Assembly (NCBI GenBank): GCA_034190085.1
Contig: JAXHTS010000066.1
Location: forward strand, 1 to 56,423
Reading direction: 5' to 3'
Origin: Spirochaetota bacterium
GTDB taxonomy: Bacteria > Spirochaetota > UBA4802 > JAFGDQ01
Length of the DNA stretch: 56,423 nt
This document shows, one piece after another, positions 1-31,130 of this stretch. The position numbers and the translations under genes were made by a program. Numbering within the stretch: position 1 is the stretch's first letter; every line of letters begins with the position of its first letter. The notes below the pieces were generated by a model, which was not told where the DNA came from, made no database searches, and saw nothing but the letters and a program-made list of their open reading frames with translations.

Positions 1-133
1 TCCAAACAGCTTTTCGCAAATAGTCGAGCCTATCTGATCTCTTCTTTTCAGCTACCCACCACCATTCCTTATTCTTCTCAAGCTCTCCTAAGGTTTTATC
101 AGGAACTGTGCTTCTCTTTGACCCTTCTACCAT
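1..133 (-). CDS. Glycyl radical enzyme catalytic subunit, N-terminal end only (cut by window edge)
   Basis: The minus strand from 133 reads 44 codons before the window ends. The peptide contains EWWWVAEKKRS and RLDYLRKAVW, which match almost exactly the N-termini of the two GRE catalytic subunits at 1505-4028 and 4307-6829. A GGAGGT ribosome binding site at 146-141 lies 7 nt before the ATG and fixes the start. It is therefore the beginning of a third paralogue in the same orientation, downstream of the TRAP binding-protein gene at 361-1395. The radical glycine and active-site cysteine lie outside the window, so activity cannot be judged. The first 15 or so residues differ from the other copies. 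Confidence 0.85.
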   Translation of the reverse strand, partial: MVEGSKRSTVPDKTLGELEKNKEWWWVAEKKRSDRLDYLRKAVW

Positions 134-360
134 AAAACATACCTCCATTGTTATAATTATTACCCTCTAAATTTCTATTATCCCTCATTATACACCTTTA
201 ACCCCAAAACTTATTTTTATAAAATCTGTTCATATTACGATAAACCTATTTGATAACTTTTATCAAAACAACTTGAATTATCATTTAGGTATCCTTAATA
301 TACAATCATAAAGGTTACTCCAGCTACTCCTATACACACCTCCTTTAACAGTAGTTTATA

Positions 361-1395
361 TCATCTGACCCTATTTGCTCTATAAGATTTCAAATAATCC
401 ATAACCTCATTAAGCAACTCCTTAGGATACTCCTTCCCTGCCATCTTATTCCAGACTGTCATAGTCCTCTTCCTTAATATATCGATCTCCTCAGTTGTCA
501 TGCAAACCTCTTTACAACCATAATCGATCATCCCTTTTCGTGCATCATCACTCACTCTAATCGCCTCTTTTTTTACTTCCCCCTCAATTTCTAATGCGAT
601 TCTCCTGAGTTTATCCCTTTGATAAGCAGGTAGTTTTTTCCATTCCGATTTTAATACTACAAATATTGCCTGATCAAATCTAATCGGAACCGGATTTATA
701 TACTTTGTTATAGTATAGAGTTGCGCCGCTAACCACCACAATGAAGGAGATATCGCCCCATCAACTACTCCAGATCTCACGGAAGGAACGACATCTGGCA
801 CATTAACAGGAATTGGACTCGATCCAAGTGACTTTAATACCTCTGCCTCCAATGGTCCATGCCACGTTAATATTTTACTCTTCTTAAAGTCCTCAATCTG
901 TTTAAGAGGATACTTTGTTGAATAAAAATTAGACTCAACATCCATGGTCATTAGTATTATAAATCCTTTTTTCTCAGCAATTTTATTCAATTTTGGTCTC
1001 AACCTTTCTCTTACATAAATCACTTCCTCCATATTATTAAACAAGAAGGGCAGTTCTGTCACAGTTATTCCAGGACAGACATCAGCATTGCAGGTTCCTG
1101 AAAGCATTGCTGCTTGCAGTTGACCTATCCTCATCTTTGCCAAATAATCCTCCTCATCCCCCATTATTGCTCCTGTGTACCAGACAAATTTAAGATCCCC
1201 ATTTGTTGCTTTCAAAGCTGCATGCGTAAAATCCAATGTTAAAATTTCCATCATTTTGATTGAATCCTGACCCAAAGTTGCCCATTTCCACACATACTTA
1301 GGCTCCTTTTTGGCCATTAAACTAGAAAAACATAATCCAATAATAATCAACCCAAACAAGATAAGAGCTATGAAGCTTTTCTTACTCCTTTTCAT
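361..1395 (-). CDS. dctP: TRAP transporter substrate-binding protein, DctP family (paralogue A)
   Basis: This 344-residue periplasmic solute receptor should deliver an organic anion to a DctQM membrane pair. An N-terminal signal or anchor segment (about residues 8-28: basic residues, then a leucine/isoleucine-rich stretch) precedes the mature part. Family features are the WHGPLEAEVLKSLG region and the ligand-binding segment VPSVRSGVVDGAISPS followed by WWLAAQLY. Very similar proteins are encoded at 30009-31049, 31131-32174 and 32485-33510. No dctQ or dctM lies beside this copy, so it probably shares the membrane subunits at 26313-28205. It sits between the GRE gene starting at 133 and the one ending at 1505, which links its ligand to GRE metabolism. 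The ligand is unknown; a mono- or dicarboxylate is the default guess. Confidence 0.9.
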   Translation of the reverse strand: MKRSKKSFIALILFGLIIIGLCFSSLMAKKEPKYVWKWATLGQDSIKMMEILTLDFTHAALKATNGDLKFVWYTGAIMGDEEDYLAKMRIGQLQAAMLSGTCNADVCPGITVTELPFLFNNMEEVIYVRERLRPKLNKIAEKKGFIILMTMDVESNFYSTKYPLKQIEDFKKSKILTWHGPLEAEVLKSLGSSPIPVNVPDVVPSVRSGVVDGAISPSLWWLAAQLYTITKYINPVPIRFDQAIFVVLKSEWKKLPAYQRDKLRRIALEIEGEVKKEAIRVSDDARKGMIDYGCKEVCMTTEEIDILRKRTMTVWNKMAGKEYPKELLNEVMDYLKSYRANRVR

Positions 1396-1504
1396 AAAAA
1401 CTAACCCCTAAATAATTATTTAATCTCGTTATTTAGATAAACATGCTCATCTCCTTCTTAGATCTTATAACTATCCCTTATAGATATTATTGGAGAAATC
1501 ATTC

Positions 1505-4028
1505 CTATCCCAATCCCTGTATAGTCCTCTGAATAATATTGTCCTGTGTTTTACGGCTGATATCCACAAAATGTGCGCTGTAACCCGCAACACGTACTAT
1601 CACCTCCTGGTACTGCTCAGGATCCTTCTGCGCTGCCCTAAGCGTTGCATCATCCACCATATTGAACTGTACATGATCAAGTCCCAGATCCGACCATGTC
1701 TTCATGTACGCCTTCCATAATTGATAGCCCTTCTCACCAGAGAGCTGTGTTGGTGAAAGACGCTGGTTCAAAAGAAAGGCCCTGCCATCGCTTACATGGT
1801 CTATCTTCCCACAAGACTTCAATACAGCCGTAGGCCCCTTCTTATCGAGCCCGGGACCAGGTGATATGCCTCCATCATAAAGCGCATCTCCCAACCTCCT
1901 ACCACTGGGAAGAGCGTGAACCATATTTGAAAAGTGTATGTTGCCACTAATGTTCTCAGGCAAAGCAGGCCACGTATTCCCTGAGGGACACCTTATCTCC
2001 CTGGAATGCCTTGCAACCTCTCTCAAACAGCGCACCATCATATCATCCGCATAATCATTATCATTTCCCCACTTAGGGGCATTATTCACAAAGTCAAGTC
2101 GCATCTCCTCCTTGCCTTCCCAGTTATTCTCCAGCGCATCCACCAACTCCTCCATCGCGTATCTCTTCTCATCAAAGACTAATCTCTTTACAGCCGCTAG
2201 GCTATCTACATTCTCAACCCACGTGAAGAAGGTTACCCAGGCATTGCCCCCTCTCAAGAGATGGCACCAACGCATCAAGACCACTCTCTATTGACTTCTC
2301 AGAGATTGCTGAGAGAAAGGGACGACCCCAATTCTCTGGACTCTTCACTCTAGCACGATTTGCTATCCGTACACCAAAATTCATTAACCACTCCATCTGT
2401 TTTACCCAAGCTGCAAATAACTCCTCAAAATCAGTAAACTTCCTCGCATCCCCTGTCCTTGGCCCCATCTGCATCTTTACTATATGATCATAACCACTAT
2501 GAAGGGCATACTCGACCATCTTTGAGCAATTCAGTGTCGCAGTAGCCATACGACATGGCTGAGCACCACGCTTCGTTGTTGGACATGGTGACATGCAGGC
2601 CTGATGTACCCAGAGCCTCATCTCATCCAGCGGATGACTATGCCAATGCATCCCATTTGCTATCAGAACAGGGTCATTCCGTATACTCGGATACCCCAAT
2701 CCGTGTCTAATGCACTCAAATACCTCCCTCCAAACCTCATCTGACACTCCTGGATGCCACCTGAATCCAAATGTCGGATTGGATACCCGAACAAACCTCG
2801 CCGCCTGCAAAAAGGCAATGGTCAAATCATTGCAGGCATCACTTCCATCAGAATTCACTCCTCCCAAGGTCCATACCCATGTGCCGGATATGCCCTGAGC
2901 TGCCTCAGACCCAAATCTCGGAAGGTAATGTCCCAACTCATAGCAACGGATCAAGAACTCCCCAACAAAATCAAGCGCCTCCTCCTTCGTAATATGCTTC
3001 TCTATATTCACATCCCTATTATAGTAAGACCAATGATAGTAATCCGGACGGGCTGGCCATGCTGACTCAAAGTCCTCGAATCTTGTCCATACCTGAATAA
3101 AATGATCGTACTGAAACGACTCCTGCAAGTTCCTCGGTGGCTTTGCAGGTACCCTCTCACATGTCTCAACAATACTCAAAAGCTCCTCCTTCCTCTTAGT
3201 ATCGGATTCAAAGCTCTCTGCTATAATCCGCGCCAACCTTGCGTATCTCTTTGCATTCCTGATACAGGCCTCCAATATAATCTGCATGGCCTCCCAATTC
3301 GGTAGCTTATCATATAGGGGAAGGATATCAGGCCCTGGATTGCCATCTATCCGCTCCTCCGCTCCGTCTATCCTCTGCTGTATCTCTTCGATTATCTCCT
3401 CAAATGCCCTCTTACCTGTCATGAAATACTCATATTCTTTTCCAGAATAACCAAAGCTGCCGCCGATAGGAACACCCCACATTAGAACAGTACTCATAAG
3501 CTTCACTGCCTCTTCACTGGAGAATTCTCTAAATATCTTACCTGTACTATCTCTCGTACCCCAATAATTGTTGATTTCAGCCATAGTCTTGAGAGATTCC
3601 TCCTCTGGCTCAGGGATTATAACTGGATCGTTGTATATCTCCTCATTGATGAAGCTTGCTAATTCACAATACCAAAAGACAGAGTTCGGAAGACTACCCA
3701 GATAGCCCACAAGCTGTGCATTATCAGTAATGAATATAGTAATATTATCAAGCACATGTGATAGGGCTTTCGCCCTCCTCAACATTATGGGATCATTTTC
3801 ACTCTCCTTCCAGGATTCAGTAAATAGCAACGGCCTCTCAATATCGATCTTAAGACCTGGTTCATACATCCCTCCCTTCTTCCCCTTCTTCCATACCGCC
3901 TTCCTCAAATAATCCAATCTCTCAGACCTCTTCTTCTCAGCAACCCACCACCATTCTCTACTATTCTCGAGTTCTTTTATATCCCTTTCCCGAGATGTAC
4001 CCCTAAAGTCCTTGGCTCGTGATTCCAT
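1505..4028 (-). pseudogene. Glycyl radical enzyme catalytic subunit (X-succinate synthase-like), single frameshift
   Basis: This gene would encode about 840 residues close in sequence to the product of 4307-6829. Reading from the ATG at 4028 (preceded by GGGAGG; a further ATG at 4043 overlaps that site), frame is lost at about 2250. There the minus strand has five G (plus 2247-2251), where four would keep SLERG-NAWVTFF in frame. The remaining part (2250-1505) is intact in the other frame. It includes the radical loop RVAGYSAHF and the C-terminal RTIQGLG. The active-site segment HQACMSPCPTTK lies in the first part. No other stop or frameshift was seen, so this is either a very recent lesion or a homopolymer error in the assembly. 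If the error explanation holds, the gene is an active second enzyme. Confidence 0.85.
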
Positions 4029-4183
4029 GTTACATCCTCCCATATTTATTTTTTTATCTAACTACTGCCATCATACCTCCAATAAAATTATCTATACATA
4101 AATTCCAACAAATCAGTTGTACCAAACATTAATATTTTAAATAATCTATATTATCTGGATCACAATTAAATAATCCATCAAAA

Positions 4184-4199
4184 ACCGTCCAGCCTGTTT
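4184..4199. promoter_or_regulatory. Candidate operator shared with the sdh and MmgE/PrpD genes
   Basis: The plus strand reads ACCGTCCAGCCTGTTT, about 155 nt upstream of the GRE start at 4028. Near-identical words occur upstream of MmgE/PrpD (29889-29904, ACCGTCCAGACTGCTT) and of sdhA (15038-15052, ACCGTCTGACTGCTT, one base shorter). All three lie in non-coding DNA before minus-strand genes. No regulator is identified in the window, and the 263-bp gap around this copy shows nothing else. Confidence 0.4.
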
Positions 4200-4306
4200 T
4201 TTAATCTTAAAATATATACCTCCTCAAAATAAACTACTCCCAACCCCATTCAGCAGAATAGCATATTATTGAAGATCAAAACCATGAGGTCCCCTATAGG
4301 AAATCT

Positions 4307-6829
4307 CTAACCTAAGCCTTGTATAGTCCTCTGTATGATATTGTCCTGAGTCTTACGACTAATATCAACGAAATGAGCGCTATAACCAGCTACCCGAACA
4401 ATCACCTCCTGATACTGCTCTGGATCTTTTTGCGCAGCCCTGAGAGTAGCATCATCGATCATATTAAACTGAACGTGATCAAGCCCTAAATCAGCCCACG
4501 TCTTCATGTAAGACTTCCATAGCTGATAACCCTTCTCACCCGAAAGCTGAGTTGGCGATAAACGCTGATTTAATAAAAAAGACCTTCCCTCGCTTATATG
4601 ATTAATCTTACCACAGGACTTTAATACTGCAGTTGGCCCCTTCTTATCCAAACCAGGACCAGGTGAAATGCCGCCATCGTACAGGGCATCCCCCAACTTC
4701 CTGCCATTAGGAAGTGCATGGACCATACCCGAAAAATGTATATTGCCGCTCACATTCTCTGGCAAGGCAGGCCATGTGTTGCCAGATGGACACCTTATCA
4801 CACTTGAATGGCGCGCTGCTTCCCTCAAGCATTTAACCATTATCTCGTCCACTTCATCATCATCATTTCCCCACTTAGGAGCATTCTTCACAAAATCCAA
4901 TCTCATCCCCTCTTTCCCTTCCCAATTGCTCTCCAATGCATCCATTAACTCGTCCATCGTATACTTTTTCTCATCAAATACTAATTTCTTAACAGCTGCT
5001 AAACTATCAGCATTCTCCACCCAGGTAAAGAAAGTGACCCATGCATTGCCTCTCTCAATCGATGGCTCAAGAGCATCCATTCCAGTCTCAATACACTTTT
5101 CAGAGATGGATGATAAAAAGGGACGACCATAAAATTCGGGACTCTTCACCCGTCCCCTGTTTACTATACGCGCCGCAAAACTCATCATCCACTCCATCTG
5201 CTTCACCCATGCAGCAAAAAACTCTTCAAAATCAGCAAACGTCCTTGCATCTCCAGTTTTCGGGCCCATCTGCAATTTAATACAATGATCAAATCCATTA
5301 TGCAGCGCATACTCAACCATTTTTGAAGTATTCAATGTTGTTGAAGCCATACGACATGGTTGAAAACCATATTTGGTAGTTGGACAGGGCGACATACATG
5401 CCTGATGAACCCAAGTCCTCATCTCTTCAAGCGGATGGCTGTGCCAGTGCATCCCATTCGCTATTAAAATAGGATCATTCCGAATGCTAGGATATCCTAA
5501 ACCTTGTCGTATACATTCGAATACCTCCCTCATCACATCATCTGAAACCTTAGGGTGCCACCTGAATCCAAAGGTAGGGCCAGAGACTCTTACAAGCCTT
5601 GCTGCTTTTAAAAGCGCTAGGGTCAAATCGTTGCATGCATCGCTACCATCTGGTTTCACTCCCCCAATAGTCCATATCCATGTTCCAGATATGCCCTGAA
5701 CCCCCTCAGACGCAAATGAAGGGACATACATACCCACCTCATGGCAACGAATCATGAACTCCCCTACAAGATCAAGCGCTTCCTCCTCTGATATCTTCTT
5801 ATCAATCTTTACATCTCTATCATAATAAGGCCAGTGATAATAATCTGGACGAGATGGCCAGGCGCCTTCAGCATCCTCAAATCTACTAAAGATTTGTATA
5901 AAATGATCAAACTGCAAAGATTCCTGAAAACTCCCCGGTGGCTTAGCTGGAACCCTTTCACAGGTCTCTGCTATGCATAAGAGTTCTTCTTTCCTTTTTG
6001 GATCTGACTCATAATTCTCTGCTATTATCCTGGCTAATCTAGCAAATCTATTCGCTGTCCTAATACATGCCTCAAGAATTATCTGCATTGCCTCCCAGTT
6101 GGACAGCTTGTCATATAACGGTAGAATATCTGGCCCAGGATTCCCATCTATTTTTTCCTCAGCATCATCTATTCTTTCCTGTATCTCATCAATAATATCC
6201 TCCAATCCTCTTTTGCCATTCATAAAATACTCATAGTCCTTTCCAGCGTAACCGAAACTCCCACCAACAGGAATACCCCACATTAGGACTGTACTCATCA
6301 ATTTCACAGCCTCCTCGCTGGAAAACTCACGGAAAACCTTTCCCAGATTATCCCGCGAACCCCAGTAATTATTAAGATCAACCATAACCTTAAGCGACTC
6401 ATCCTGTGGTTCGGGTATAATAACTGGATCATTATATATCTCATCATTAACAAAACTAGCTACGTCTACATACCAGACAAGCGTATTTGGAAGACTCCCC
6501 AAATATCCCACAATTTGTGCATGGTCTGTGATATGAATAGTAATATTATCAAGGACATGGGCTACAGCCTTGGCCCTTCTCATCATTATGGGATCATTTT
6601 CGTTCTCCTTCCATGATTCAGTAAAGAGGAGTGGTCTCTCTAAATCTACTTTAATACCAGGTTCATACATCCCTCCCTTTTTACCCTTCTTCCAGACTGC
6701 TTTTCTAAGGTAATCAAGCCTCTTCGACCTCTTCTTCTCAGCAACCCACCACCATTCTCTATTATGCTCCAATTCCTCGATACTCCTTTTCTGCGAAAAC
6801 TCAACATCCCTACCTATTTCTGGTGCCAT
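4307..6829 (-). CDS. Glycyl radical enzyme catalytic subunit, fumarate-adding (alkyl-/arylsuccinate synthase) type
   Basis: This 840-residue protein is probably the large subunit of an enzyme that adds a substrate radical to fumarate. The PFL-like barrel spans roughly residues 30-690 and the glycine-radical domain 700-840. The radical loop RVAGYSAHF places the radical on Gly815. The active-site motif HQACMSPCPTTK places the thiyl cysteine at Cys478 (Cys482 is the nearby alternative). The Cys-Gly spacing and the MSPCP signature are those of BssA/AssA-type enzymes, not of PFL, diol dehydratase or isethionate lyase. GGAGGT upstream of the ATG supports the start. Two small Fe-S subunit genes lie upstream in the same orientation, as expected for this family. 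The hydrocarbon or other substrate cannot be read from the sequence, and no activase gene is nearby. Confidence 0.88.
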   Translation of the reverse strand: MAPEIGRDVEFSQKRSIEELEHNREWWWVAEKKRSKRLDYLRKAVWKKGKKGGMYEPGIKVDLERPLLFTESWKENENDPIMMRRAKAVAHVLDNITIHITDHAQIVGYLGSLPNTLVWYVDVASFVNDEIYNDPVIIPEPQDESLKVMVDLNNYWGSRDNLGKVFREFSSEEAVKLMSTVLMWGIPVGGSFGYAGKDYEYFMNGKRGLEDIIDEIQERIDDAEEKIDGNPGPDILPLYDKLSNWEAMQIILEACIRTANRFARLARIIAENYESDPKRKEELLCIAETCERVPAKPPGSFQESLQFDHFIQIFSRFEDAEGAWPSRPDYYHWPYYDRDVKIDKKISEEEALDLVGEFMIRCHEVGMYVPSFASEGVQGISGTWIWTIGGVKPDGSDACNDLTLALLKAARLVRVSGPTFGFRWHPKVSDDVMREVFECIRQGLGYPSIRNDPILIANGMHWHSHPLEEMRTWVHQACMSPCPTTKYGFQPCRMASTTLNTSKMVEYALHNGFDHCIKLQMGPKTGDARTFADFEEFFAAWVKQMEWMMSFAARIVNRGRVKSPEFYGRPFLSSISEKCIETGMDALEPSIERGNAWVTFFTWVENADSLAAVKKLVFDEKKYTMDELMDALESNWEGKEGMRLDFVKNAPKWGNDDDEVDEIMVKCLREAARHSSVIRCPSGNTWPALPENVSGNIHFSGMVHALPNGRKLGDALYDGGISPGPGLDKKGPTAVLKSCGKINHISEGRSFLLNQRLSPTQLSGEKGYQLWKSYMKTWADLGLDHVQFNMIDDATLRAAQKDPEQYQEVIVRVAGYSAHFVDISRKTQDNIIQRTIQGLG

Positions 6830-6854
6830 CGTACATACCTCCCTTAAAATTTTG

Positions 6855-6902
6855 ATTCAATTTAATATTATGCGATATATAACTCACTTAATTAAATTGA
6901 AT
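6855..6902. repeat. 12-bp perfect inverted repeat in the GRE leader
   Basis: ATTCAATTTAAT (6855-6866) and ATTAAATTGAAT (6891-6902) are exact reverse complements separated by 24 nt. They lie 26-73 nt before the ATG of the intact GRE gene, so the stem would form in its untranslated leader or at its promoter. AT-rich stems arise by chance fairly easily, so function is uncertain. Confidence 0.4.
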
Positions 6903-6917
6903 GGTGATACCTAAGGA

Positions 6918-6939
6918 TTTCACAAAATTAATTGTGAAA
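6918..6939. promoter_or_regulatory. Operator-like palindrome upstream of the intact GRE gene
   Basis: TTTCACAA and TTGTGAAA are perfect 8-bp arms around AATTAA, about 90 nt upstream of the GRE start at 6829. The size and symmetry suit a dimeric helix-turn-helix regulator. The half-site order is not that of CRP or FNR. No equivalent was seen upstream of the other GRE copies. Confidence 0.4.
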
Positions 6940-7266
6940 AACACTATGACATATTATTTTTTTTATCATTATTCATCCTAATTCACTCTACACTATTTCC
7001 CCTCTAAATCATCCTAAATTTATAAAAAATGATTAGCTCAATGAAAAGGATAAATTCCATTGTAATATCGATCTATAAATCAGATTCTGTTAATCCCTCC
7101 TTGATTACATCAATATCATTAACATCAAGAGAGATGGTAATCTCATTATATATTACTTCTAAAAGTATTAATGCCTGCTCAAAGCATAACCAAGACTGCT
7201 AATGACTAACAAAAACATAAATATGTATATGTGTAACTATCAAATAAGTAGCGGGGGACATACTGA

Positions 7267-7560
7267 CCAAGCCCTTGGATTATTCTCTCTATATTATAAT
7301 TTTTTATAACTAAACTTATATCCACAAAATAAACTTGCTTTTCAACAAATCCAAATAATCAACATCCTGTTACCACTCAGGATCCCTTGAGTTATATTTG
7401 GTGTTAAATTAAGCTCAAAATCAGTATAAACCTGAATAAAATTATACCCTGTAGCAGATTAAATTTTTATGTAGGCCTTAATTATTATGATAACATTTCT
7501 CGCAAGATACCAAGACAAAGGATAGGTGTTAGGTTAATCATACCTCTTTTTGGGGATCCC
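7267..7560 (-). pseudogene. Decayed relic of a glycyl radical enzyme 3' end
   Basis: This otherwise empty stretch aligns by eye with the last roughly 290 bp of the GRE gene ending at 1505. Exact blocks include ATATCCACAAAAT (about 7317) and CTCAGGATCC (about 7376). Between them are similar segments at nearly the same spacing, with short indels. A further match is the ATGTAGGCCTT block near 7472, against ATGTACGCCTT in the intact copies. All three frames are interrupted. The relic has the same orientation as the intact genes and sits between the catalytic and small-subunit genes, so it records a fourth catalytic copy lost by decay. The right-hand boundary is uncertain. The flanking DNA (6940-7266 and 7560-7900) shows no gene. 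Confidence 0.55.
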
Positions 7561-7902
7561 TCTAAAAGACCGCTCTCTAATATTTACTAAATCTCCTATC
7601 TCCACTTCTCATTATTAGATAAAGACAATTACTGGCATTGTTTTATCATCACACTTACTCTATATTTTTTATAATAGTTATATTTATGGCGCTTCTACAC
7701 AAAATTTCTCTTTAATGCTACTCTCAATTAATATAAATAACCAGGTTTAACATTTCGAAAATAAACTTATTGCAGAAGCGCCAATCATTCATAGCAAGCT
7801 CACTCATCTTTAACATAACTCTCTATATCTTATTTTTCAAAGATAATAAAGCTATAGATATAAAGTTTGTCTAATCATATTCGACAAAACTCTCTCTCTA
7901 TT

Positions 7903-8265
7903 TCACTTTTTCATCTGTCTCTGATGTCGGCTAACCATTGGATCAAGTGATTGTGATATATCTGTATCTATCAATTCCAGCTCATCATAATATTTACAAT
8001 TAGCTGCATCATTATTGAAACCCACTGCCAAAAAGGCCTCTCCCTCTGTCACAAATACTGGATTATCAGTTTTAAAATCTGTGCCCTCCTTCAATACATT
8101 GCATATACCGCTCACTGTGCCCAAACCGGCCTGAAAATAATTCTTACATTTGCCACAGGCCTTATCAGGAACGGTCTCCCTCTCTTCCACACTTCTAGCC
8201 TTCTCGCTGGTACCTAACATCGCTTCCCTTACTCCATCCCATTCACTTCCTCTTTTTCTTGGCAT
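7903..8265 (-). CDS. Small Fe-S subunit of a glycyl radical enzyme (BssB/BssC-like), copy 1
   Basis: This 120-residue protein has four cysteines (Cys37, Cys40, Cys55, Cys90) in the order CGKC, GICNVL, NCKYYDE. The pattern CxxC, one Cys about 15 residues on and one about 35 further is that of the small HiPIP-like subunits that carry a [4Fe-4S] cluster in benzylsuccinate synthase-type enzymes. The identical MPRKRG start and the shared SVEERE, DTDISQS and RHQRQM segments make it a paralogue of the product of 8998-9351. It lies upstream of the catalytic genes in the same orientation, but with a 1.07-kb gap holding a GRE relic. Its role in stabilising or protecting the catalytic subunit is inferred from the family. 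Confidence 0.75.
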   Translation of the reverse strand: MPRKRGSEWDGVREAMLGTSEKARSVEERETVPDKACGKCKNYFQAGLGTVSGICNVLKEGTDFKTDNPVFVTEGEAFLAVGFNNDAANCKYYDELELIDTDISQSLDPMVSRHQRQMKK

Positions 8266-8375
8266 ATCTATACTCCTCTTGAATTAATAATAATGTATAG
8301 TGTATAATTATATTTATTTATTAATTGTAGTTCATTTTGATAACATAGATCACACTCTTTTGATTATCCCTCAAA

Positions 8376-8433
8376 CAAAAAAACCTTTATCTTCTATTGA
8401 AAGTAGAGAATATAGAAGATAAAGGTTTTTTTG
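8376..8433. terminator. 22-bp perfect hairpin, bidirectional terminator-like
   Basis: The arms 8376-8397 and 8412-8433 are perfect reverse complements (each contains the AACCTTTATCTTCTAT word or its complement) around a 14-nt loop. The outer stem is A7/T7, so a T run closes the hairpin in either direction. It lies between the two small-subunit genes, about 110 nt before the ATG at 8265. It could end transcription of the upstream gene and leave 7903-8265 with its own promoter. Confidence 0.6.
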
Positions 8434-8833
8434 TTTTTATTGATTTTATGATCCCTCATGTTTCCCTTCATAATATATCTATTAATATCCAATTAGTTGA
8501 ATCCTGCTCACTATTTCAATTTCTGTATTTTTCTGACTTAAAATTACTGGTAACTACTTAGATAGAAACAAAAAATCGAACCTTATGAAAACCTGATATG
8601 TTAAAACCTCCTCTTATCATTTAATTATAAAATGCCTAAATCCAATCACTATAACAAAATTTTAGTTTTATGATTTTGCCGCATTTTCATCTCAAGATTC
8701 ATACGAAATAAATCCTCTCACATCAGTTACATTAAATAATTATGATTCTCAATCACAATAATCCCTTGTAAGGTTTTGTTTTATGTCTCAATTATAAGCT
8801 TATATAATATATTTACATGAATATTTAATATTT

Positions 8834-8886
8834 AATAAAAGTCTCTATCTCCCGCATATTTATTTAGGAAGACAAAGACTTTTATT
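8834..8886. terminator. Inverted repeat downstream of small subunit 2
   Basis: AATAAAAGTCT (8834-8844) pairs with AGACTTTTATT (8876-8886) across 31 nt. It starts 112 nt after the stop codon of the gene ending at 8998. It resembles a weak terminator for that minus-strand gene. The rest of the 732-bp gap 8266-8997 is AT-rich and shows no gene. Confidence 0.4.
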
Positions 8887-8997
8887 ATCATTTCATCGTT
8901 TTATAAATATTACTCATAGATCATTAAACAATTTTTACTTAAACCGTAATCTCAACAAACCAATAAATATTTTAAGTAGATAATAAACCGAATACGC

Positions 8998-9351
8998 CTA
9001 CTTCTGCATCTGTCTCTGATGACGACTAAACATCGGATCATTCGATTGTGATATATCTGTATCTATTATTTCCATCTCATCATAATAGGTGCATTTACTA
9101 GCATCCATATTAAACATCGTAGGCAAGAAGACTTTACCCTCTGTAACAAATACAGGCGGTTCAACTGTAAAGTTAGTACCATCCTTTAAAACATTACATA
9201 AGCCATTACCAGAAATTTGATAAAAATTCTTGCACTTACCGCAAGCCTTCTCCGGGACATTCTCCCTCTCCTCAACACTTCTGGTTTTTTCGCTCATATC
9301 TAACATGGCATCTCTTGCGCTATTCCATTGAGCTCCTCTTTTCCTTGGCAT
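8998..9351 (-). CDS. Small Fe-S subunit of a glycyl radical enzyme (BssB/BssC-like), copy 2
   Basis: This 117-residue paralogue of the protein at 7903-8265 has cysteines at 37, 40, 52 and 87, fitting one [4Fe-4S] cluster. The N-terminal MPRKRG, the SEKTRSVEERE segment and the tail RHQRQMQK are almost the same in both. It differs mainly in the loop before Cys52, which is three residues shorter. In known fumarate-adding enzymes the beta and gamma small subunits are only distantly alike. Two close paralogues here are better read as partners for different catalytic copies than as beta plus gamma of one enzyme; this is inference. A purine-rich GGAGG-like site precedes the ATG. Confidence 0.75.
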   Translation of the reverse strand: MPRKRGAQWNSARDAMLDMSEKTRSVEERENVPEKACGKCKNFYQISGNGLCNVLKDGTNFTVEPPVFVTEGKVFLPTMFNMDASKCTYYDEMEIIDTDISQSNDPMFSRHQRQMQK

Positions 9352-9986: not shown

Positions 9987-10331
9987 TCAGAAATAAAATA
10001 TCCTCAGCTTGAGCACCATTACCAGCAAGACAGCCCCTAAAATCATCAATAAGCCAAATAGCACTTTCTGTAGTGTAACCCTCTTACTGAGGTCCAATAT
10101 AATCACGCGAAGACCTAATACAGCATGAAAGCATACACAGAGTGCCATTAAGGTTTGGATTAAAACCTGATAAGGATATACGAGATGAAGTGTCACAAAT
10201 ACAATAATACCTAAAGCAGAAAATCTCTGCAAAAGCCATGCCCACATCCCAATTTGCGTCGAACGCCACTCAGACAGGGTGAGCACCTCCCTTTTGTTAA
10301 CTATATCACCACTATTTTTAACGTCTTCCAT
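9987..10331 (-). CDS. Succinate dehydrogenase membrane anchor, SdhC/SdhD-like
   Basis: This 114-residue protein has three hydrophobic segments (about residues 29-48, 52-72, 84-108). The first carries QRFSALGIIVFVTLHL, and the second FHAVLGLRVIILDL, a histidine-glycine-arginine arrangement typical of SdhD-type anchors that bind heme b and quinone. GGAGG 7 nt upstream supports the ATG. It is the last gene of the operon with sdhA, sdhB-Rieske and cytochrome b-c, separated from the last by about 130 bp. Only one anchor gene is present where many SDHs have two. Either it works as a homodimer or the fused cytochrome b supplies the remaining quinone site (inference). Confidence 0.75.
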   Translation of the reverse strand: MEDVKNSGDIVNKREVLTLSEWRSTQIGMWAWLLQRFSALGIIVFVTLHLVYPYQVLIQTLMALCVCFHAVLGLRVIILDLSKRVTLQKVLFGLLMILGAVLLVMVLKLRIFYF

Positions 10332-10462
10332 TATTTGCCTCCATATTTATTATATTGCCAGACTTTATTAATCCTGTATAAAACAACATTTCAATATATT
10401 TGCTGCCAATAGTGACAATTCCAAATAATTCAATCCATATTATTCTATAAACTATAATACAA

Positions 10463-11962
10463 TTAAATACTCTTCTCTTCTTCCCCTTTGTCATTTGTTG
10501 TGGAGACAATATCCTTTTTAAGATATACCTCATCTGTCTTTCCACTACCAATCCCAGACCTATATAGCTTATAGGTGCTCCTAAATACAGACGGTTCAAC
10601 TGTTTTTATATTATATTTCATTAAATCGATGCTTGTTACATAACTAACTAAAGCATCAAGATCATATTTATCGAAATAGTATTTTATCATCTTTCCCTTA
10701 CCCAGTACCTTATCTGGATCCTTGAGTAGGTCTTCAACAAATTTCTTATCCCTCTTAGCGCCGACCTTCCAAAGATCAGGGGCATGCTTCATTCCCACAC
10801 CCTTAATGCTATGACAACAGTAACATACATTCTTTTCAAAGATTGCCATGCCTGCAAGCTCCTTAACCTCAAGGGTACGATCTGGAGCAAAGAACTTGCC
10901 TGGAAGGGGGCTGGATATATGAGCTATAAGAGTAAGATAACCTGCGATAATGATTGCTGACACACCTGAAGCAATTGCAATAGGTCTTTTCAAATAGGCC
11001 CTCTCTTCATTTCTGTCATAAAAAGGCAATAACAATACAAGGGCACCACCTATTACAGGTACTACCGCCAATGCAATTATTATCAACTTTCCCTCAAACA
11101 TCTTTATTATCTCATATCCAAAGAGGATAAACCACTCAGGTTTAGGCACTGAATCAATATCCGCTAACGGAGAAGCCTGCTTTGCCTCATGCACACCAGC
11201 AAATTTTGCAAGTACTATCAACAATACAAAGGCAAGAATAACTACTATTACATCCTTTGCAAGTTGGTAAGGGAAAAACGGTTGTGTGCCCACATCACCC
11301 TTCTCCTTTTTAGGAGGAGGCCCTTTCTCCCCATGAATCTGAATCATCAAGATGTGGATAGCCAGAAAGCCTGCTAGCCCCAATGGGATTAACACTATAT
11401 GAAAGGCGAAATACCTTCCTAAGGTTACACCCCCGGTCTGTTTGCCACCAACGACATTTGCGATCCAGGAGCCGACGACTGGAATATAATCAAAGGTTGT
11501 TGCGAGAATCGTTACCGCCCAATAGGAGATATCAGTCCATGGTAGTATATAACCTGTAAGAGCCATTGCCATTGTTGCTCCAAGGAGAAACACCCCAGCT
11601 ATCCAGGTTACCTCATTGGGCTTTTTATATCCACCATCAAAGAAAACCCGCGCCATGTGAAGCATAACAACAATTAACATCAAATTTGAGCCCCAATGGT
11701 GTATTCCTCTTATAAGCCATCCCCAGACCATCTCATTCTGAATATACTGCGTGCTACTGTATGCGCTCTCAATTGTTGGCACAAAATTACAAGCTAATAT
11801 AATTCCTGTAACAACCTGCGAGATCAATAAAAATAGGGCCAAGGCACCTAATGTGTGCCACCAGCTTATATCCTTGGAAAGCGGCTTATAAATAACCTTT
11901 TCCTTTAAAAAGTCCCAAAGTAACCGATCATCAACCCATCTTTTTTTCTGAACTGGTTCCAT
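10463..11962 (-). CDS. Cytochrome b (b6 plus subunit IV type) fused to a C-terminal cytochrome c domain
   Basis: This is the 499-residue core of a bc-type quinol oxidoreductase. Heme b ligands are visible as His88-x13-His102 and His188-x14-His203; the 14-residue second spacing is the b6 type. The quinol-site motif PEWF is at 275-278, in the subunit-IV-like half. After the last membrane segment (about 330-347) comes a heme c domain with CYCCH at 380-384, and Met425 as a possible axial ligand. So b6, subunit IV and cytochrome c are one chain. The ATG lies 3 nt after the stop of the upstream sdhB-Rieske gene, with a GAGGAAG site inside that gene, so the two are translationally linked. The cytochrome c domain should face the periplasm and take electrons from the Rieske head. 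Confidence 0.9.
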   Translation of the reverse strand: MEPVQKKRWVDDRLLWDFLKEKVIYKPLSKDISWWHTLGALALFLLISQVVTGIILACNFVPTIESAYSSTQYIQNEMVWGWLIRGIHHWGSNLMLIVVMLHMARVFFDGGYKKPNEVTWIAGVFLLGATMAMALTGYILPWTDISYWAVTILATTFDYIPVVGSWIANVVGGKQTGGVTLGRYFAFHIVLIPLGLAGFLAIHILMIQIHGEKGPPPKKEKGDVGTQPFFPYQLAKDVIVVILAFVLLIVLAKFAGVHEAKQASPLADIDSVPKPEWFILFGYEIIKMFEGKLIIIALAVVPVIGGALVLLLPFYDRNEERAYLKRPIAIASGVSAIIIAGYLTLIAHISSPLPGKFFAPDRTLEVKELAGMAIFEKNVCYCCHSIKGVGMKHAPDLWKVGAKRDKKFVEDLLKDPDKVLGKGKMIKYYFDKYDLDALVSYVTSIDLMKYNIKTVEPSVFRSTYKLYRSGIGSGKTDEVYLKKDIVSTTNDKGEEEKSI

Positions 11963-11965
11963 AAT

Positions 11966-13225
11966 CTATGCTTCCTCCAAATTCCGAAGATAGAGTTCTC
12001 CTCCCTCAACCTTAACCTCTAATCGCTCCAAAGGCCTAGGCGGGGGACCTACAACTACTTTCCCATCTATATCAAATGCACCCCCATGGCAAGGACACAT
12101 AAATTTACGTATTGAATCTTCCCAATAACAAATACAACCTAAATGTGTACAGGTTGGATCAATTGCGCTAATTTCGCCCTTCTCATTTTTCACAACATAG
12201 GCTCTCTTAGGATAGGTGACAAGACGGCCCTTCTCCCATTTCTTCCTCTCATAAATCACCTCGGCTGGCTTATTGACATCGACCTCTGGCATTGCGCCAA
12301 CATTAATCCATCCCTTCACCCATCCACGTACCCCCTTGCTAAGCAAGGGTACAGAAAAAACACCCGCAAAAACCGCCGCGACAAGGCCAGCGCCTCCCAA
12401 AAACACTGTCTTCAAGAAACTCCTTCTCTCTAAAAGAGACTCACCGGGCGCTGAAGGTGGAGGAGGGGTTATCGACCTAACCTTTCCGCCTTCCTGTTCC
12501 TTCAACTCATTCTTCTTCTGCGACATAAAGGGATACAATACAGCCTGCCTCTTTAGATGATTAACCGCTTCTGTAGGACGCAACTCTTTTGGACAGGCAT
12601 CAGTGCAACGAAGCTCAGTATGACAACGCCATATCCCTGATTCCGAAATTAGATTCAGAAGCCGCTCCCTTCCCTCTGCATCACGATCATCCTTGAGTTT
12701 GGCATCCGCGGCCAAAAACGCAAAAGGGCCCGGGAAGTCAGGATCCCAACTGCACATTGTACATGCGGCATAACAGGAACCACATAGAATGCACTCCACT
12801 AGACCATCCAATTCTTTACGATTTTTTTTAGATTGATAAAACTCTTTATTTTCTTGAGGTATCTCCTTTGGTATGAGATAGGGTTCAACAATTTCATATT
12901 TTCTATAAAAATCTGTCATATCAACAACCAAATCTTTTAATAACGGAAGGTGAGCAAGCGGCTCAAGAACTACTTTTTTAGTTTTTAAATTCTTTACAAT
13001 AGTGCGACAAGCAAGTCCATATCGACCATTTATTTTCATTCCACAAGAACCACAAACTGCCGCCCGACAGGAACATCGATAGGCAATGCTTGAATCAAGA
13101 TTTTCCAAAATATAAAATAGACATTCCAATACAGTTGTGTCACTCTCTACAGGCACTTGGAACACATCATATCGAGGTTCTTTATCCACATCTGGATCAA
13201 ATCTTAATACTTTAAACTCAACCAT
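11966..13225 (-). CDS. sdhB: Succinate dehydrogenase iron-sulfur subunit fused to a Rieske protein
   Basis: This single 419-residue chain has two modules. Residues 1-240 are SdhB: [2Fe-2S] ligands Cys53, 58, 61 and 73, [4Fe-4S] ligands Cys145, 148, 151 and 211, and [3Fe-4S] ligands Cys155, 201 and 207, all at standard spacing. A proline-rich linker (about 253-265) leads to a twin-arginine-like segment, ERRSFLKT, and one membrane helix (about 272-296). Then comes a complete Rieske domain with CTHLGC (359-364) and CPCHGG (377-382). The start is the ATG at 13225, with GGAGGT at 13237-13232. An upstream in-frame ATG at 13297 lies inside sdhA and lacks this support. sdhA ends one base earlier. SdhB would sit in the cytoplasm and the Rieske head outside, joined across the membrane. 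Confidence 0.92.
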   Translation of the reverse strand: MVEFKVLRFDPDVDKEPRYDVFQVPVESDTTVLECLFYILENLDSSIAYRCSCRAAVCGSCGMKINGRYGLACRTIVKNLKTKKVVLEPLAHLPLLKDLVVDMTDFYRKYEIVEPYLIPKEIPQENKEFYQSKKNRKELDGLVECILCGSCYAACTMCSWDPDFPGPFAFLAADAKLKDDRDAEGRERLLNLISESGIWRCHTELRCTDACPKELRPTEAVNHLKRQAVLYPFMSQKKNELKEQEGGKVRSITPPPPSAPGESLLERRSFLKTVFLGGAGLVAAVFAGVFSVPLLSKGVRGWVKGWINVGAMPEVDVNKPAEVIYERKKWEKGRLVTYPKRAYVVKNEKGEISAIDPTCTHLGCICYWEDSIRKFMCPCHGGAFDIDGKVVVGPPPRPLERLEVKVEGGELYLRNLEEA

Positions 13226-13226
13226 C

Positions 13227-14939
13227 CTAATACCTCCTCTCTTCTGGCTGCCATTTTGTGACAGATACTGACTTATAAGAAAGTTTTGGTCCATCATCAG
13301 TGCATTTCGCTACAGTATGCTTCATCCACTTCTTATCATCCCGTTTCTCAAAATCCCTTCTATAATGAGCGCCACGAGACTCTTCACGCTTTAGCGCTCC
13401 TAACGTAATCACCTCCGCCATATCAAGATTCGCCTTTATCTCTAAAGTCCAGGTCTTATCATAATTAAAAACATTACCTTTACTGATTGATCTTATATTC
13501 TTAAACCGCTTCTTCAACTCCCTTACATGGTTTAAGGCAGATGTTAAACCTTCCTTGTTTCTAAAGACCTGCACCTTTGTATCCATTACTTCATGCAACT
13601 CATCCTGAATATGATATTGATTCTCTGTTCCTCCACGATTGTACAACTCATCCAATTCCGCCTCTTTCTTCTTCAATACATTCTTGATAATTCCATCCTT
13701 CTTGGAAGCGCCCTTCCCCTTTACAATATTACCAACATAATCCCCAACCCTTGCTCCAAATACCACACAATCCAAAAGGGAGTTTCCACCGAGCCGATTA
13801 GCGCCATGCACGCTCACACAAGCGCACTCTCCACAAGCATAAAATCCTTCCATCTCTGTCTTGCCATCAGCGTCAGCATCTATACCACCCATAGTGTAAT
13901 GAACCGCTGGCCGAATAGGAATAGGCTTTTTAATGGGATCAATTCCCAAAAATTCTATACATATCTCTCGTATTCCAGGAAGTCTCTCCATTATCTTCTC
14001 AGCTCCCAGATGTCTCAAATCTAGATGAACATAATCGCCTTTATCTATCCCATGTCCCTCGTTGATCTCTGTCATAATGGAACGTGCGACCATATCCCTG
14101 GGAGCAATCTCCATATAATTCGGGGCATACTTTTTCATAAACCGCTCACCCTCATTATTAATAAGGTAGCCCCCCTCTCCTCTTGCCCCTTCAGATATTA
14201 AAATATTTTTCCCAATTATACCGCTGGGATGAAACTGAACAAACTCCATATCTAATAGTGGTATGCCCGCCCAATACGGCAAAGTAACACCCAATGCAGT
14301 TGAACTATAAGAATTTGTTGTATGTCCATAGATTCTGCCCGAACCTCCCGTTGCGAATATTACAGCATGCCCAAGAAAAATTTCAAGCTTCCCTGTTCGC
14401 ATATTAAAGCATGTTACACCCTTACAAACCCCATCATCGACAACCAACCCTATAACATAATATTCATCATAGAGTACGACATGATCCTTTAATGTAAGGT
14501 ATTTCTGAAACAGGGTATGAAGTATAAAATGACCTGTCCGGTCAGAGCCATAACATGTTCTTGGGAAGGCCCCACCGCCAAATGGCCGTTGAGCTATTGT
14601 GCCATCCTCCTCCCTTGAAAACGGGCATCCCCATTGCTCTAACTCCCTAATCCTATCAGGAGCCTCTTTGGTCATAATCTCAATTGCATCCTGATCTCCC
14701 AAAAAATCACTTCCTTTAACAGTATCGTAAGCATGCCTTTCAGCGCTATCATCCCTCCCTTCAGGATTATTGCCCAGTGAGCCATTTATTCCACCCTGAG
14801 CCTGCCCGGAATGTGATCTTATTGGATATATTTTTGATATCCAACCAACATCAACACCAAGAAGGCCTGCTTTATCCACCGCCATATTGCCAGCAAGACC
14901 TCCACCTACAACAAGCAGTTCATGCGAATGAGCCTCCAT
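13227..14939 (-). CDS. sdhA: Succinate dehydrogenase / fumarate reductase flavoprotein subunit
   Basis: This 570-residue flavoprotein interconverts succinate and fumarate. The N-terminal FAD fold has [11 protein letters not shown], and the FAD-linking histidine lies in [17 protein letters not shown]. Active-site elements are the HPSG motif, the RDMVARSI arginine, and [28 protein letters not shown] matches the family near the C-terminal FAD contacts. It is the first gene of the operon. Its stop (13229-13227) is one base from the ATG of sdhB-Rieske, whose ribosome binding site lies in the last sdhA codons. The company of a bc-type complex argues for the succinate-oxidising direction. Next to a fumarate-adding GRE cluster it could regenerate fumarate; that link is inference. 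Confidence 0.93.
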
Positions 14940-26312: not shown

Positions 26313-27623
26313 CTATATTGTTAACAATTCCGGTCTTTTGCCCATCATATCTATCAATAGTAACGAAAGCTTAGGCCAGTAGGTAATTACAAGAAGAACG
26401 AGTATATTCAGAATGAAGAATGGTATTACAACCCTAAATAATCTAACAATTGGTTCTTGAAATCTTACACTGGCAACAAATAGATTCATACCTATGGGCG
26501 GAGTCAAATACCCGATTGTCATATTTGATAGGAAGACTATGCCAAGATGGACTGGATCAATACCATAACCATCGGCAATTGGCGCAATAAGAGGCACAAG
26601 AACAAGTATCGCTGAAAAGATATCCATCATACATCCTGCAATCAGCAGAAAACCGTTTAACGCCATTAAAAAACCCAGCTTAGAGGAAATATGCTTTTGA
26701 ATAAATTCCATCATCGCCTGAGGAATCTGTTGATCTATTAGATAATTCGTGAGGCCCAGAGCAAGGCCGAGTATACACATCAACGCGCCCACCATTACCA
26801 TGCTGTCTACTACTACATCCAATAACTTCTTGAATCCAATATCTCTATAAATAAAACACTCTGTAATTATAGCATAAGCTGCGGAAACAGCGGCTGCCTC
26901 TCCAACAGTAATAATTCCGGTAAATATTCCAATAACAATTACAAAGGGAAGGGGTATCTCCCATTTCGATTCATTAATGGCCCCTAAAATCGTAGAAATT
27001 GACATCCGTTCAGTTGGAATCTTTATCTTATGCCCGTGCCATACAGAATATATTATCAGAACTAACACCAACAATGAACCAGGCAAAACACCTGCAATGA
27101 ATAATAGCACAGTATCAACTTGAGATATCAATGCATAGATAATGATCGGCAGACTCGGAACAAAGAGTAGACCAAGGCTACCGGATGTTGTAACCAATCC
27201 TAAGGAGAAGTCCTCCTCAAAACCGCTCTTTATGAGCGCTGGCAAGAGCAATCCTCCAATGGCAATAATAGCAAGGGCGTTTGCGCCTGTGAGGGCTGTA
27301 AAGATGGAACCTGCAACCAGAACAACCACTGCCATTCCTCCTGGCAACCAAGAGAGAAAGGCGCTTGATAATCTTATCATTCTCTCTGAAGCCTTGCTCT
27401 CTGCCAACAGATAACCTGTAAAAGTAAAAAGAGGCAGCGCAATTATTCCAGGCGCCCTGGATATTTTACTGATCTCTGTAATAATCGCATTTGTGCTTAG
27501 ATCAATACTTGTGAAAAAGTACAGCGTCAAACCGCCAATTACTCCAAACAAAGGGGTACCAATCAATATTAACAAAAGAACAAAAACAATAGCTAAAAAT
27601 ACTAAAATAACTCCCATAATCAA
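26313..27623 (-). CDS. dctM: TRAP transporter large permease subunit DctM
   Basis: This 436-residue membrane protein with about a dozen hydrophobic segments is the ion-coupled permease of the TRAP system. Typical elements are PLFTFTGYLLAESKASERM near the first third, SGSLGLLFVPSLPIIIYA in the substrate-path region, and TPPIGMNLFVAS near the C-terminus. It lies between dctQ and the T-component gene, each less than 100 bp away on the same strand. Three binding-protein genes and MmgE/PrpD precede it, so one permease may serve several receptors. Confidence 0.93.
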   Translation of the reverse strand: MIMGVILVFLAIVFVLLLILIGTPLFGVIGGLTLYFFTSIDLSTNAIITEISKISRAPGIIALPLFTFTGYLLAESKASERMIRLSSAFLSWLPGGMAVVVLVAGSIFTALTGANALAIIAIGGLLLPALIKSGFEEDFSLGLVTTSGSLGLLFVPSLPIIIYALISQVDTVLLFIAGVLPGSLLVLVLIIYSVWHGHKIKIPTERMSISTILGAINESKWEIPLPFVIVIGIFTGIITVGEAAAVSAAYAIITECFIYRDIGFKKLLDVVVDSMVMVGALMCILGLALGLTNYLIDQQIPQAMMEFIQKHISSKLGFLMALNGFLLIAGCMMDIFSAILVLVPLIAPIADGYGIDPVHLGIVFLSNMTIGYLTPPIGMNLFVASVRFQEPIVRLFRVVIPFFILNILVLLVITYWPKLSLLLIDMMGKRPELLTI

Positions 27624-27701
27624 TCTCCTCTATACTTTTCTACTTCATAATATATTTAATTTTATTATTAATTCTTACCCAATATGTTATTACTGGTCAC
27701 G

Positions 27702-28205
27702 TTATACACTTGCATCCCCTCTCTTCTCAAGTGTCAAAATCGCTATCAACATTCTCACCGATGTAATAAAAAAGAAATAAGGAACTGCTAACATAACGAT
27801 CCAATCAGGCACACCTTCTACAATTTGACTAACATTATATTCACTTAAAATACCAAGGTAATCTACAGCAGTTAAAAATAGAAACCCACTGACTACTCCC
27901 ACAATTAGTTTTGTAACAAAATCAATAAGGGTTCGCATACGTCCGCCTGTATATTGAGCTATTAGATCCACTGAAATATGCCTACCATAATATGTCGTTA
28001 GCGACGCCCCGACAAAAGTAGACCATATTACAGTAACCTTGACAACCTGATCAACCCACATAAATCCCATCTGAAACAAATTCCTTACTACAACCTGTCC
28101 AAAAGCCATGGTAACCATAATAAATAATACCATGTAGATGACGAGTTTTTCTAACCTCATCAGATACATATCTGCTAACTGCACATACTCTAAAATTTTT
28201 TTCAT
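27702..28205 (-). CDS. dctQ: TRAP transporter small permease subunit DctQ
   Basis: This 167-residue protein has four hydrophobic segments (about 20-42, 52-70, 92-113, 133-155). WVDQVVKVTVIWSTFVGAS and YGRHISVDLI match the conserved core of DctQ. It precedes dctM by 78 bp. Together they form the membrane part for the substrate-binding proteins at 30009-33510 and probably 361-1395. Confidence 0.9.
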   Translation of the reverse strand: MKKILEYVQLADMYLMRLEKLVIYMVLFIMVTMAFGQVVVRNLFQMGFMWVDQVVKVTVIWSTFVGASLTTYYGRHISVDLIAQYTGGRMRTLIDFVTKLIVGVVSGFLFLTAVDYLGILSEYNVSQIVEGVPDWIVMLAVPYFFFITSVRMLIAILTLEKRGDASV

Positions 28206-28446
28206 GCTATCCTACTCCTTTTTCTTTCTCTATCTTTTCTTAATAATACTAAGACTTCATTTTACATCTATTTACATCTATCTTAAATAGTTCATTACAC
28301 CAATCTTGTTCAAAACTTGACCCTAACTTTAATAATTGAGAACCTCTATCACTCAAGGGCAATCTTTATTCCAGCATAATGATAATTGATAAATCCCTCC
28401 TCCTTACTATTGACCCCCCCTTTTTTAAATTTATAATCGCTATAAA

Positions 28447-29778
28447 TTAAACATTGAACTTTTCAATGAAGCCTTTCATATTTGCCTGATTCTCTAAAGA
28501 AAAAATATCTTCAACGATCTCTATTGTTTTCGCCTCACCCAAAATTGGACTGCACAAATCAAGGAACTTGGCTTTGATCTTATCCTTCTTAACTTCATAT
28601 TCTGGTATCTCCTGTAATATATCAGAAAAAGCCGAATTTACCCTTCCATCCTTTGTCTCTATCTCCACAGTGGACTCTAGCCCCAGTTTTTGGTCATCTA
28701 AAACAAGTGATATCTTTGTCATCAAATCCTTAATTTTCTGGTCATTAACCTTTTCATCAGTAAATGCCTGCATTCCAGTGTTCCCTCTCAAAAGAGCATT
28801 GGCCACACAATATGGAATGCTGAATTTACCTTCAAGTCCTGTATTTACTTCAGTTTTGCCTGCAGCATCACACGAAAGTTGTGAAGAACTAATCTTTATC
28901 GACTCTATATCATCCAGGTTTATGTTTTCCTTTTGTACAATATTCCTTGCTGCCTCAATTGGCGAGTGGGTAGCATGACAGGATGCATGATATTTCTGGG
29001 CTATATTCTCCACCTCCCATGTCTTACCCAGTGTATTGATGACATCCTCATTCTCCTGCCCCTTTAACACCTGAAAAAAGCCATGTGCTCCTTCGAGAAT
29101 ATCATCAGCGCTTGTAAAACCTTCCCTTGCCAATAGGGCGGATAAGAGTCCAGCATCAGATGATTTGCCAGCATGAAAGGGCTTACACATTGTGCCGAAT
29201 ACCCTCTTCAGTCCAGAGGCCTGTGTTCCTGCAATACCAAGCGCATTAACTGTCTGCTCTTCATTAAGCCCCAAAAGTCTCGCGCAAGCGGCTGCTGAGG
29301 CAAAATGACCCAGAGTGGATGTGCCATGCCATCCTATTAAATAATGCTCTCCGCCAGCGCACATTCCAACAGTTGCTCCTACTTTTATCCCTATAATATA
29401 AGCGGTCAAAAAATCATGCCCACTCTTCTCTTTCCATTCTGATATTGCAAGAATTGACGGGAAAATGGTTACAGAGGGATGACCCAAAAAGGTCGCTAAT
29501 GTGTCATCATAATCAAGAGCATGTGAGGCTGATCCATTGATCAGCGTGGCCTGACTAACGGTTTTTTTCATATTATGACCAATTATTGAAGCCTGCTCAA
29601 ATCCCCCCATCTGATCCGCATATCGGATCAATTTCTCCACAAGGGGATCATCCTTAGCCGCCATGGTTACAGCAAGCCAATCCATAAAAGCCACCTTGGA
29701 ATGATCATAAGCAGCGGAAGGAATGTCGGTTTCTTTTGTATCAACAATAAACTTAGCAATAGTCTTAGTCAAACCCAT
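28447..29778 (-). CDS. MmgE/PrpD family protein
   Basis: This protein of about 443 residues belongs to the family of 2-methylcitrate dehydratase, cis-aconitate decarboxylase and iminodisuccinate epimerase. It shows the family core: SASHALDYDDTLATFLGHPS, TSTLGHFASAAACARLLGL, and the MCKPFHAGKSSDAGLLSALLA segment, each in the right order, then HATHSPIEAA near the C-terminal lid. GGAGG upstream favours the ATG at 29778 over one at 29805. It lies between three TRAP receptors and dctQM, so it probably acts on the imported acid: dehydration, decarboxylation or epimerisation of a branched di- or tricarboxylate. The exact reaction cannot be assigned. Confidence 0.88.
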   Translation of the reverse strand: MGLTKTIAKFIVDTKETDIPSAAYDHSKVAFMDWLAVTMAAKDDPLVEKLIRYADQMGGFEQASIIGHNMKKTVSQATLINGSASHALDYDDTLATFLGHPSVTIFPSILAISEWKEKSGHDFLTAYIIGIKVGATVGMCAGGEHYLIGWHGTSTLGHFASAAACARLLGLNEEQTVNALGIAGTQASGLKRVFGTMCKPFHAGKSSDAGLLSALLAREGFTSADDILEGAHGFFQVLKGQENEDVINTLGKTWEVENIAQKYHASCHATHSPIEAARNIVQKENINLDDIESIKISSSQLSCDAAGKTEVNTGLEGKFSIPYCVANALLRGNTGMQAFTDEKVNDQKIKDLMTKISLVLDDQKLGLESTVEIETKDGRVNSAFSDILQEIPEYEVKKDKIKAKFLDLCSPILGEAKTIEIVEDIFSLENQANMKGFIEKFNV

Positions 29779-29888
29779 TGATCTGCCTCCAGTAATCATC
29801 AACAATAAATATTATCTTTAAATATTCTAATTGGCCTAGCACGTACTAGGATAAACTTAACCTTAGGTAAACAATGACCTAAATTTCC

Positions 29889-29934: not shown

Positions 29935-30008
29935 GAAAAAATAGAAAAAAATAAAAAAACTATAAGTAACTGTTCAACAATCGTGCACACATAATGAAAA
30001 TATGACCT

Positions 30009-31049: not shown

Positions 31050-31130
31050 TTAAATACCTCCCCTCTTTCTATATTTATATATATCTAATTAGCATATCAT
31101 ATTCAAATTTAACTTCTGATTTTGAATTAC

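Follow-up and report, generated by a model that had tools for sequence, protein, structure and literature searches.

At least 28 MasD-like alkylsuccinate synthase genes and an unlinked accessory operon in the draft genome of a probable spirochaete

INTRODUCTION

The left end of contig C66, a stretch of 56,423 nucleotides assigned to a Spirochaetota bacterium and called here the window, carries several closely similar glycyl radical enzyme (GRE) genes, small four-Cys proteins and a TRAP receptor. This locus raises the question of which reaction the enzymes catalyze, how many copies the genome holds, and how such genes came to lie in a spirochaete. At hydrocarbon sites, spirochaetes have been described as feeding on dead biomass by fermentation (PMC6052044).

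RESULTS

Layout of the window

All the pieces named in an earlier note on this DNA were found on the minus strand: intact, frameshifted, partial and decayed catalytic genes, two 4-Cys proteins and a TRAP receptor between them. In the direction of transcription, the order is a succinate dehydrogenase (SDH)-type operon, the two 4-Cys proteins, the intact GRE gene, the frameshifted one, the TRAP receptor and the partial GRE gene (Table 1). The decayed gene was recognized as a short C-terminal vestige, and the 4-Cys proteins are paralogous, as the note had stated. The partial copy is present as well, but it is simply cut by the contig end, the window starting at base 1 of C66.

The frameshifted copy demonstrated 76% DNA identity to the intact gene, with the extra G as its sole break, and a dN/dS of about 0.05-0.07 against its nearest paralogues, similar to that of other copies; the break could be of recent origin or reflect faulty assembly. 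The first visible lesion of a second frameshifted catalytic copy (L009:13128-15637) is a one-base change in a T run, and both frameshifts may be sequencing errors because each visible lesion sits in a homopolymer. Positions 1-365 of the window share 98% identity with the end of contig C52, and both contigs break off at the same point; such near-identical contig ends suggest a few recent duplicates or strain variants left unresolved by the assembly. The starts of contigs C79 and C56 are also near-identical ends (98-99% overall, together with the C66/C52 pair).

Between the two beta genes is an inverted repeat (8370-8460) that resembles a terminator and is flanked by A/T runs, so the genes may be transcribed separately. 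Farther along the window, a TRAP transporter (DctQ, DctM), three tandem DctP receptors and an MmgE/PrpD protein are encoded at 26313-33510 (minus strand).

Table 1. Features of the window and genes of the second X-succinate synthase type (L017, L018 and L020 are loci elsewhere in the same genome)
Feature	Position	Strand	Evidence or remark
MasD-like catalytic (alpha) gene, N-terminal 44 codons	1..133	-	tblastn E about 1e-12; truncated by contig end
TRAP transporter substrate-binding protein, DctP type	361..1395	-	NCBIfam TRAP_S1 above cut-off; Pfam DctP
MasD-like alpha gene, frameshifted (ORFs 2214-4043 and 1505-2284)	1505..4043	-	Single lesion: one extra G in a G run
Intact MasD-like alkylsuccinate synthase alpha subunit, 840 aa, clade A	4307..6829	-	9o8u MasD, 1327 bits; Cys477, Arg492, Glu690 and Trp185 equivalents and glycyl radical motif
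C-terminal vestige of a lost alpha gene, 22 residues	7266..7331	-	Local score 53 vs maximum of 42 in 60 shuffles
MasB-like beta subunit, copy 1, 120 aa, 4 Cys	7903..8265	-	9o8u chain B, E 5e-17
MasB-like beta subunit, copy 2, 117 aa, 4 Cys	8998..9351	-	66-68% identity with copy 1
SDH-type operon: SdhA, SdhB-Rieske fusion, cytochrome b/c, SdhC-like	9987..14939	-	Pfam; upstream of the fumarate-adding enzyme genes, same direction
Cytochrome b with C-terminal cytochrome c domain	10463..11962	-	Adjoins SdhB-Rieske gene
SdhB-Rieske fusion, one 443-aa ORF	11966..13297	-	
Second X-succinate synthase type	L017:5731-8229, L017:11275-13770, L018:2010-4499, L020:4269-6613		

Identity of the enzymes

Among PDB proteins, the intact window protein matched MasD of strain HxN1 (9o8u) with 1327 bits, compared to 485 for BssA and 350 or less for glycyl radical enzymes other than fumarate-adding ones. 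The fumarate-adding type proposed in the earlier note was upheld by phylogeny: in a tree of 121 proteins, the genome's MasD-like copies branched inside the alkylsuccinate synthases, among the enzymes that act on n-alkanes in strain HxN1, Desulfatibacillum and Desulfosarcina alkanivorans, and not with decarboxylases or C-S lyases. All full-length MasD-like copies carry the glycyl radical motif RVxGYSA and the catalytic cysteine in a CMSP loop. Residue roles (catalytic, fumarate-binding and pocket) were taken from the MASS study (PMC12358834). Cys477, Arg492, Trp185 and Tyr194 (MASS numbering) were invariant in the copies covering them, Glu690 and Thr598 nearly so, and the MASS-type pocket residues Trp185, Phe600 and Tyr194 were present. 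At the position of Phe192, which forms part of the wall of the alkane cavity in MASS (PMC12358834), one of the two clades described below (clade B) has Ala or Gly, and the other (clade A) has one extra residue close by.

A dehydratase, C-S lyase or decarboxylase was rejected on NCBIfam scores far below all curated cut-offs, the CMSP loop and the low PDB scores, and benzylsuccinate synthase on its score relative to MasD and on Tyr194, Thr598 and Trp185 of MASS type. The window genes are alkylsuccinate synthase genes (MASS/ASS type) for fumarate-adding glycyl radical enzymes, and alkylsuccinate formation is predicted from their sequences.

Copy number across the genome

The host genome is a draft of 4.27 Mb in 86 contigs, 96% complete with 1.9% estimated contamination. 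The earlier note had pointed to the left of the window for further copies; the window itself begins at a contig end, and a genome-wide search yielded 33 PF02901 matches. The MasD-like catalytic genes number 28, comprising 25 full-length genes (71-100% identity to the window copy), one truncated and two frameshifted, and 13 of the 28 lie within 50 kb of one another on the 121-kb contig C64, between 28.6 and 78 kb. Nine contigs break off within or next to alkylsuccinate synthase genes, some in near-identical sequence, so the true copy number is probably higher. These at least 28 divergent MasD-like versions are the largest set found in any genome compared, and the host group is not known for alkane use.

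A divergent second type, with a CMAP cysteine loop, is represented by three intact genes and one decayed gene (Table 1), at 46-47% identity. Each copy lies near its own 80-aa 4-Cys protein, for which no Pfam or PDB match was obtained, and most are also near TRAP receptors. Relatives of the 80-aa protein occur in a Syntrophaceae MAG, in DeMMO5_3 and in Solincola-type loci. TetR-family regulators, possibly hydrocarbon-responsive, were observed directly upstream of two catalytic blocks (L009:3796-4374, plus strand; L015:16090-16698, minus strand).

Accessory subunits and activases

The genome encodes a beta (MasB), a gamma (MasC) and a rubredoxin-like delta subunit (MasE) together with a radical SAM activase, and the chain matches to the solved MASS complex had E values of 5e-17 for beta, 9e-12 for gamma and 2e-4 for delta. 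The five MasB-like beta genes fall into two kinds: three, in the window and on contig C67, adjoin clade A alphas, and two, on C52 and C56 (92% identical), adjoin clade B. A MasE-like rubredoxin-type delta, two adjacent activases and a MasC-like gamma form a cluster on contig C35 (L114 11842-9149), a contig without any catalytic alpha gene. A delta-like gene is also located near a divergent alpha gene on C45, and neither activase nor gamma was found beside alpha genes in the own-genome loci fetched.

For comparison, 34 loci from other genomes, each 12 kb or longer, had an activase (26 loci, within about 6 kb), a gamma (29), a beta (28) or a delta (25) near the catalytic gene. The earlier note had described the usual fumarate-adding operon as three subunits beside an activase; the adjoining activase is borne out by these loci, but the alkane enzyme has four subunits plus the activase (PMC12358834). 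A TRAP receptor was near the alpha gene in one of 80 comparison loci, in agreement with the view that this arrangement is unusual.

Because no activase or gamma lies near any catalytic block in the fetched sequence and the C35 operon is single and unlinked, the gene layout suggests that the alpha subunits share the C35 products in trans. Sharing of accessory proteins among the catalytic paralogues seems to hold barring further accessory genes in assembly gaps, where more could lie, as draft contigs often end inside alpha genes.

Evolution and selection

Two own-genome clades were resolved with IQ-TREE, clade A with 20 copies (SH-aLRT 98) and clade B with eight (SH-aLRT 100), both nested among sequences from cold-seep Chloroflexota and Desulfobacterota. 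The two clades are separated by sequences from cold-seep Dehalococcoidia, Desulfobacteraceae and Deltaproteobacteria. A single own-genome clade, and with it a single acquisition, was rejected by the AU test (p-AU 0.0001, lnL difference 120). The best reading of these sequences is that at least two alpha lineages were gained horizontally and then amplified to 20 and eight copies.

Within the clades, the median dS was about 2, with synonymous sites near saturation, and dN/dS was about 0.06, so the copies are old and individually maintained by purifying selection. Recent amplification is ruled out by dS, and the repeated local duplication and loss proposed in the earlier note gave way to old paralogues. 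The glycyl radical domain and the cysteine loop were almost invariant among copies, and the substrate-gating helix-loop-strand (MASS residues 168-189) had nearly twice the mean entropy. This excess is modest, with 35 of 804 equal-length windows matching or exceeding it in variability, including 24 from other parts of the protein, and diversification of substrate range therefore stays a proposal.

Host of the array

For a panB gene between alpha blocks, identity reached 71% and 66% in comparisons with two same-family genomes but no more than 51% with other members of the order. Because this panB is of host type, the array around it is part of this genome; the gltX gene of the window likewise agrees with the host order. 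RpoB is 1145 aa, unlike the long form of most Desulfobacterota loci, and the FlaA flagellar sheath protein gave three PF04620 matches above cut-off, compared to none in 14 control genomes. These sequences point to a Spirochaetota host. Among 39 relatives no comparable enzyme was found beyond one 34% match, and there was no comparable gene in 391 other sampled genomes of the phylum.

Genes for downstream steps

Two CoA-transferase family III genes lie between catalytic blocks of C64 (L014 5267-7829). In the window, the adjoining SdhB-Rieske and cytochrome b-c genes, with SdhA and an SdhC-like protein alongside, form an operon that is possibly a hybrid of complexes II and III. No match to the SdhB-Rieske protein was found in two same-family genomes, and elsewhere in the order the SdhB half alone was matched.

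DISCUSSION

Family, subunit set, copy number, unlinked accessory operon, the two expansions and purifying selection are directly established, and on this footing we consider it likely that the dispersed MASS set of this anaerobic, probably spirochaetal bacterium is a horizontally acquired, amplified and diversified means of alkane activation with common activation machinery. By analogy with MASS (PMC12358834), one or both C35 activases would install the radical on the glycine of each alpha-gamma unit, the delta subunit would hold the radical domain, and the two kinds of beta would gate substrate entry and close the channel over the alkane. The cysteine thiyl radical of alpha would take a hydrogen from the alkane, and the alkyl radical would be joined to fumarate. 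The C35 gamma and delta would serve all MasD-like alphas in trans. The copies are kept by selection, most likely because they differ in hydrocarbon range, which would divide labour by substrate, or in conditions of use. The CoA-transferase family III products would suit activation of the alkylsuccinate products, and the adjacent SDH may regenerate fumarate. A bolder, hub-and-spoke version, in which a single spirochaetal set of activases, gamma and delta would turn on a library of about 30 interchangeable catalytic subunits that differ in hydrocarbon range, is put forward tentatively, with the balance slightly against it.

Retention for dosage, with all copies catalyzing the same reaction on the same alkane and kept for enough of a slow enzyme, would agree with the conserved catalytic and fumarate-binding residues and the uniformly low dN/dS. 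Copies so retained are expected to be near-identical, however, whereas those observed show 14-29% protein divergence, with synonymous distances near saturation, and form two clades that have distinct cavity residues and are linked to distinct beta subtypes; we regard this explanation as unlikely. Somewhat less probable still is the addition of another substrate to fumarate, be it an alkylbenzene, a fatty acid, a phenol or some organic acid delivered by the TRAP receptors. TRAP receptors of organic acids do lie among the genes, the channel loop of clade A is altered, and the alkane substrate is a prediction from sequence; but the pocket residues Trp185, Phe600 and Tyr194 are of MASS type, the MASS-only delta subunit is present, and the copies branch among n-alkane enzymes (HxN1, Desulfatibacillum, Desulfosarcina alkanivorans).

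Inflation of the copy number by strain variants or contamination during assembly or binning has very little probability in our judgment. The nine contigs that end in or beside the genes, and the few contig ends that are 98-99% identical and could be strain variants, are what such inflation would leave. It fails as the main cause of the copy number on the 13 distinct copies of one 121-kb contig with a host-type gene between them; the estimated contamination is 1.9%, and nearly all copies differ far beyond strain variation. A diversified alkane-activating set remains the preferred reading.

If this reading is true, the spirochaete would itself degrade alkanes anaerobically, as a primary degrader with a broad range. 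The 28 homologues, alike in chemistry and accessory proteins but differing in cavity residues, would be a natural experiment on how the MASS pocket relates to alkane range, and whether one activase serves many alkylsuccinate synthases becomes directly testable. The array also cautions surveys that assA gene counts do not equal organism counts.

The closest characterized system is MasBCDE with its activase MasG in Azoarcus sp. HxN1 (9o8u, PMC12358834), alike in the type of catalytic subunit (about 65% identity), in beta, gamma and delta, and in catalytic and fumarate-binding residues. HxN1 has one compact mas cluster, whereas here 28 alphas lie in many blocks, with five betas and one unlinked delta-AE-AE-gamma operon. 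Benzylsuccinate synthase (BssABC/TutDFG) shares the reaction class and the gamma family BssC_TutF, but its catalytic subunit is far less similar (485 bits), and the pocket here is of MASS type.

More than one AssA-type enzyme per genome is likewise found in Desulfatibacillum alkenivorans and Desulfoglaeba alkanexedens (PMC7180275). Each of these genomes has two complete operons that include accessory genes of their own, and activase, gamma and delta adjoin alpha, unlike the arrangement here. Desulfoglaeba has two ass clusters (PMC7180275), one of which includes an MmgE/PrpD gene (PMC7180275); here such a gene is near the TRAP genes of the window. In one study, two or more variants of assA were present in most of the assA-bearing seep MAGs (PMC7673041); five assA genes occur in a Poribacteria MAG (PMC13170169). 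Overall, the open-access literature describes two to five assA genes per genome, with no report of comparable scale or of spirochaete alkylsuccinate synthases.

The nearest sequences to both own-genome clades come from cold-seep Dehalococcoidia and Desulfobacterota MAGs (PMC7673041; loci L034-L036, L041, L058 and L061-L089), which belong to other phyla and have smaller sets, their copy counts being lower bounds. The largest set counted elsewhere is the independent expansion of CSMAG_2994, with about a dozen alkylsuccinate synthases (a lower bound, part of the candidates having been scored). Loci L061-L089 are those of CSMAG_2994 and CSMAG_2959, another cold-seep lineage with the independent expansion. 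Set against these systems, the kind of enzyme is known, and what sets this case apart is the copy number, the apparently shared unlinked accessory operon and the host.
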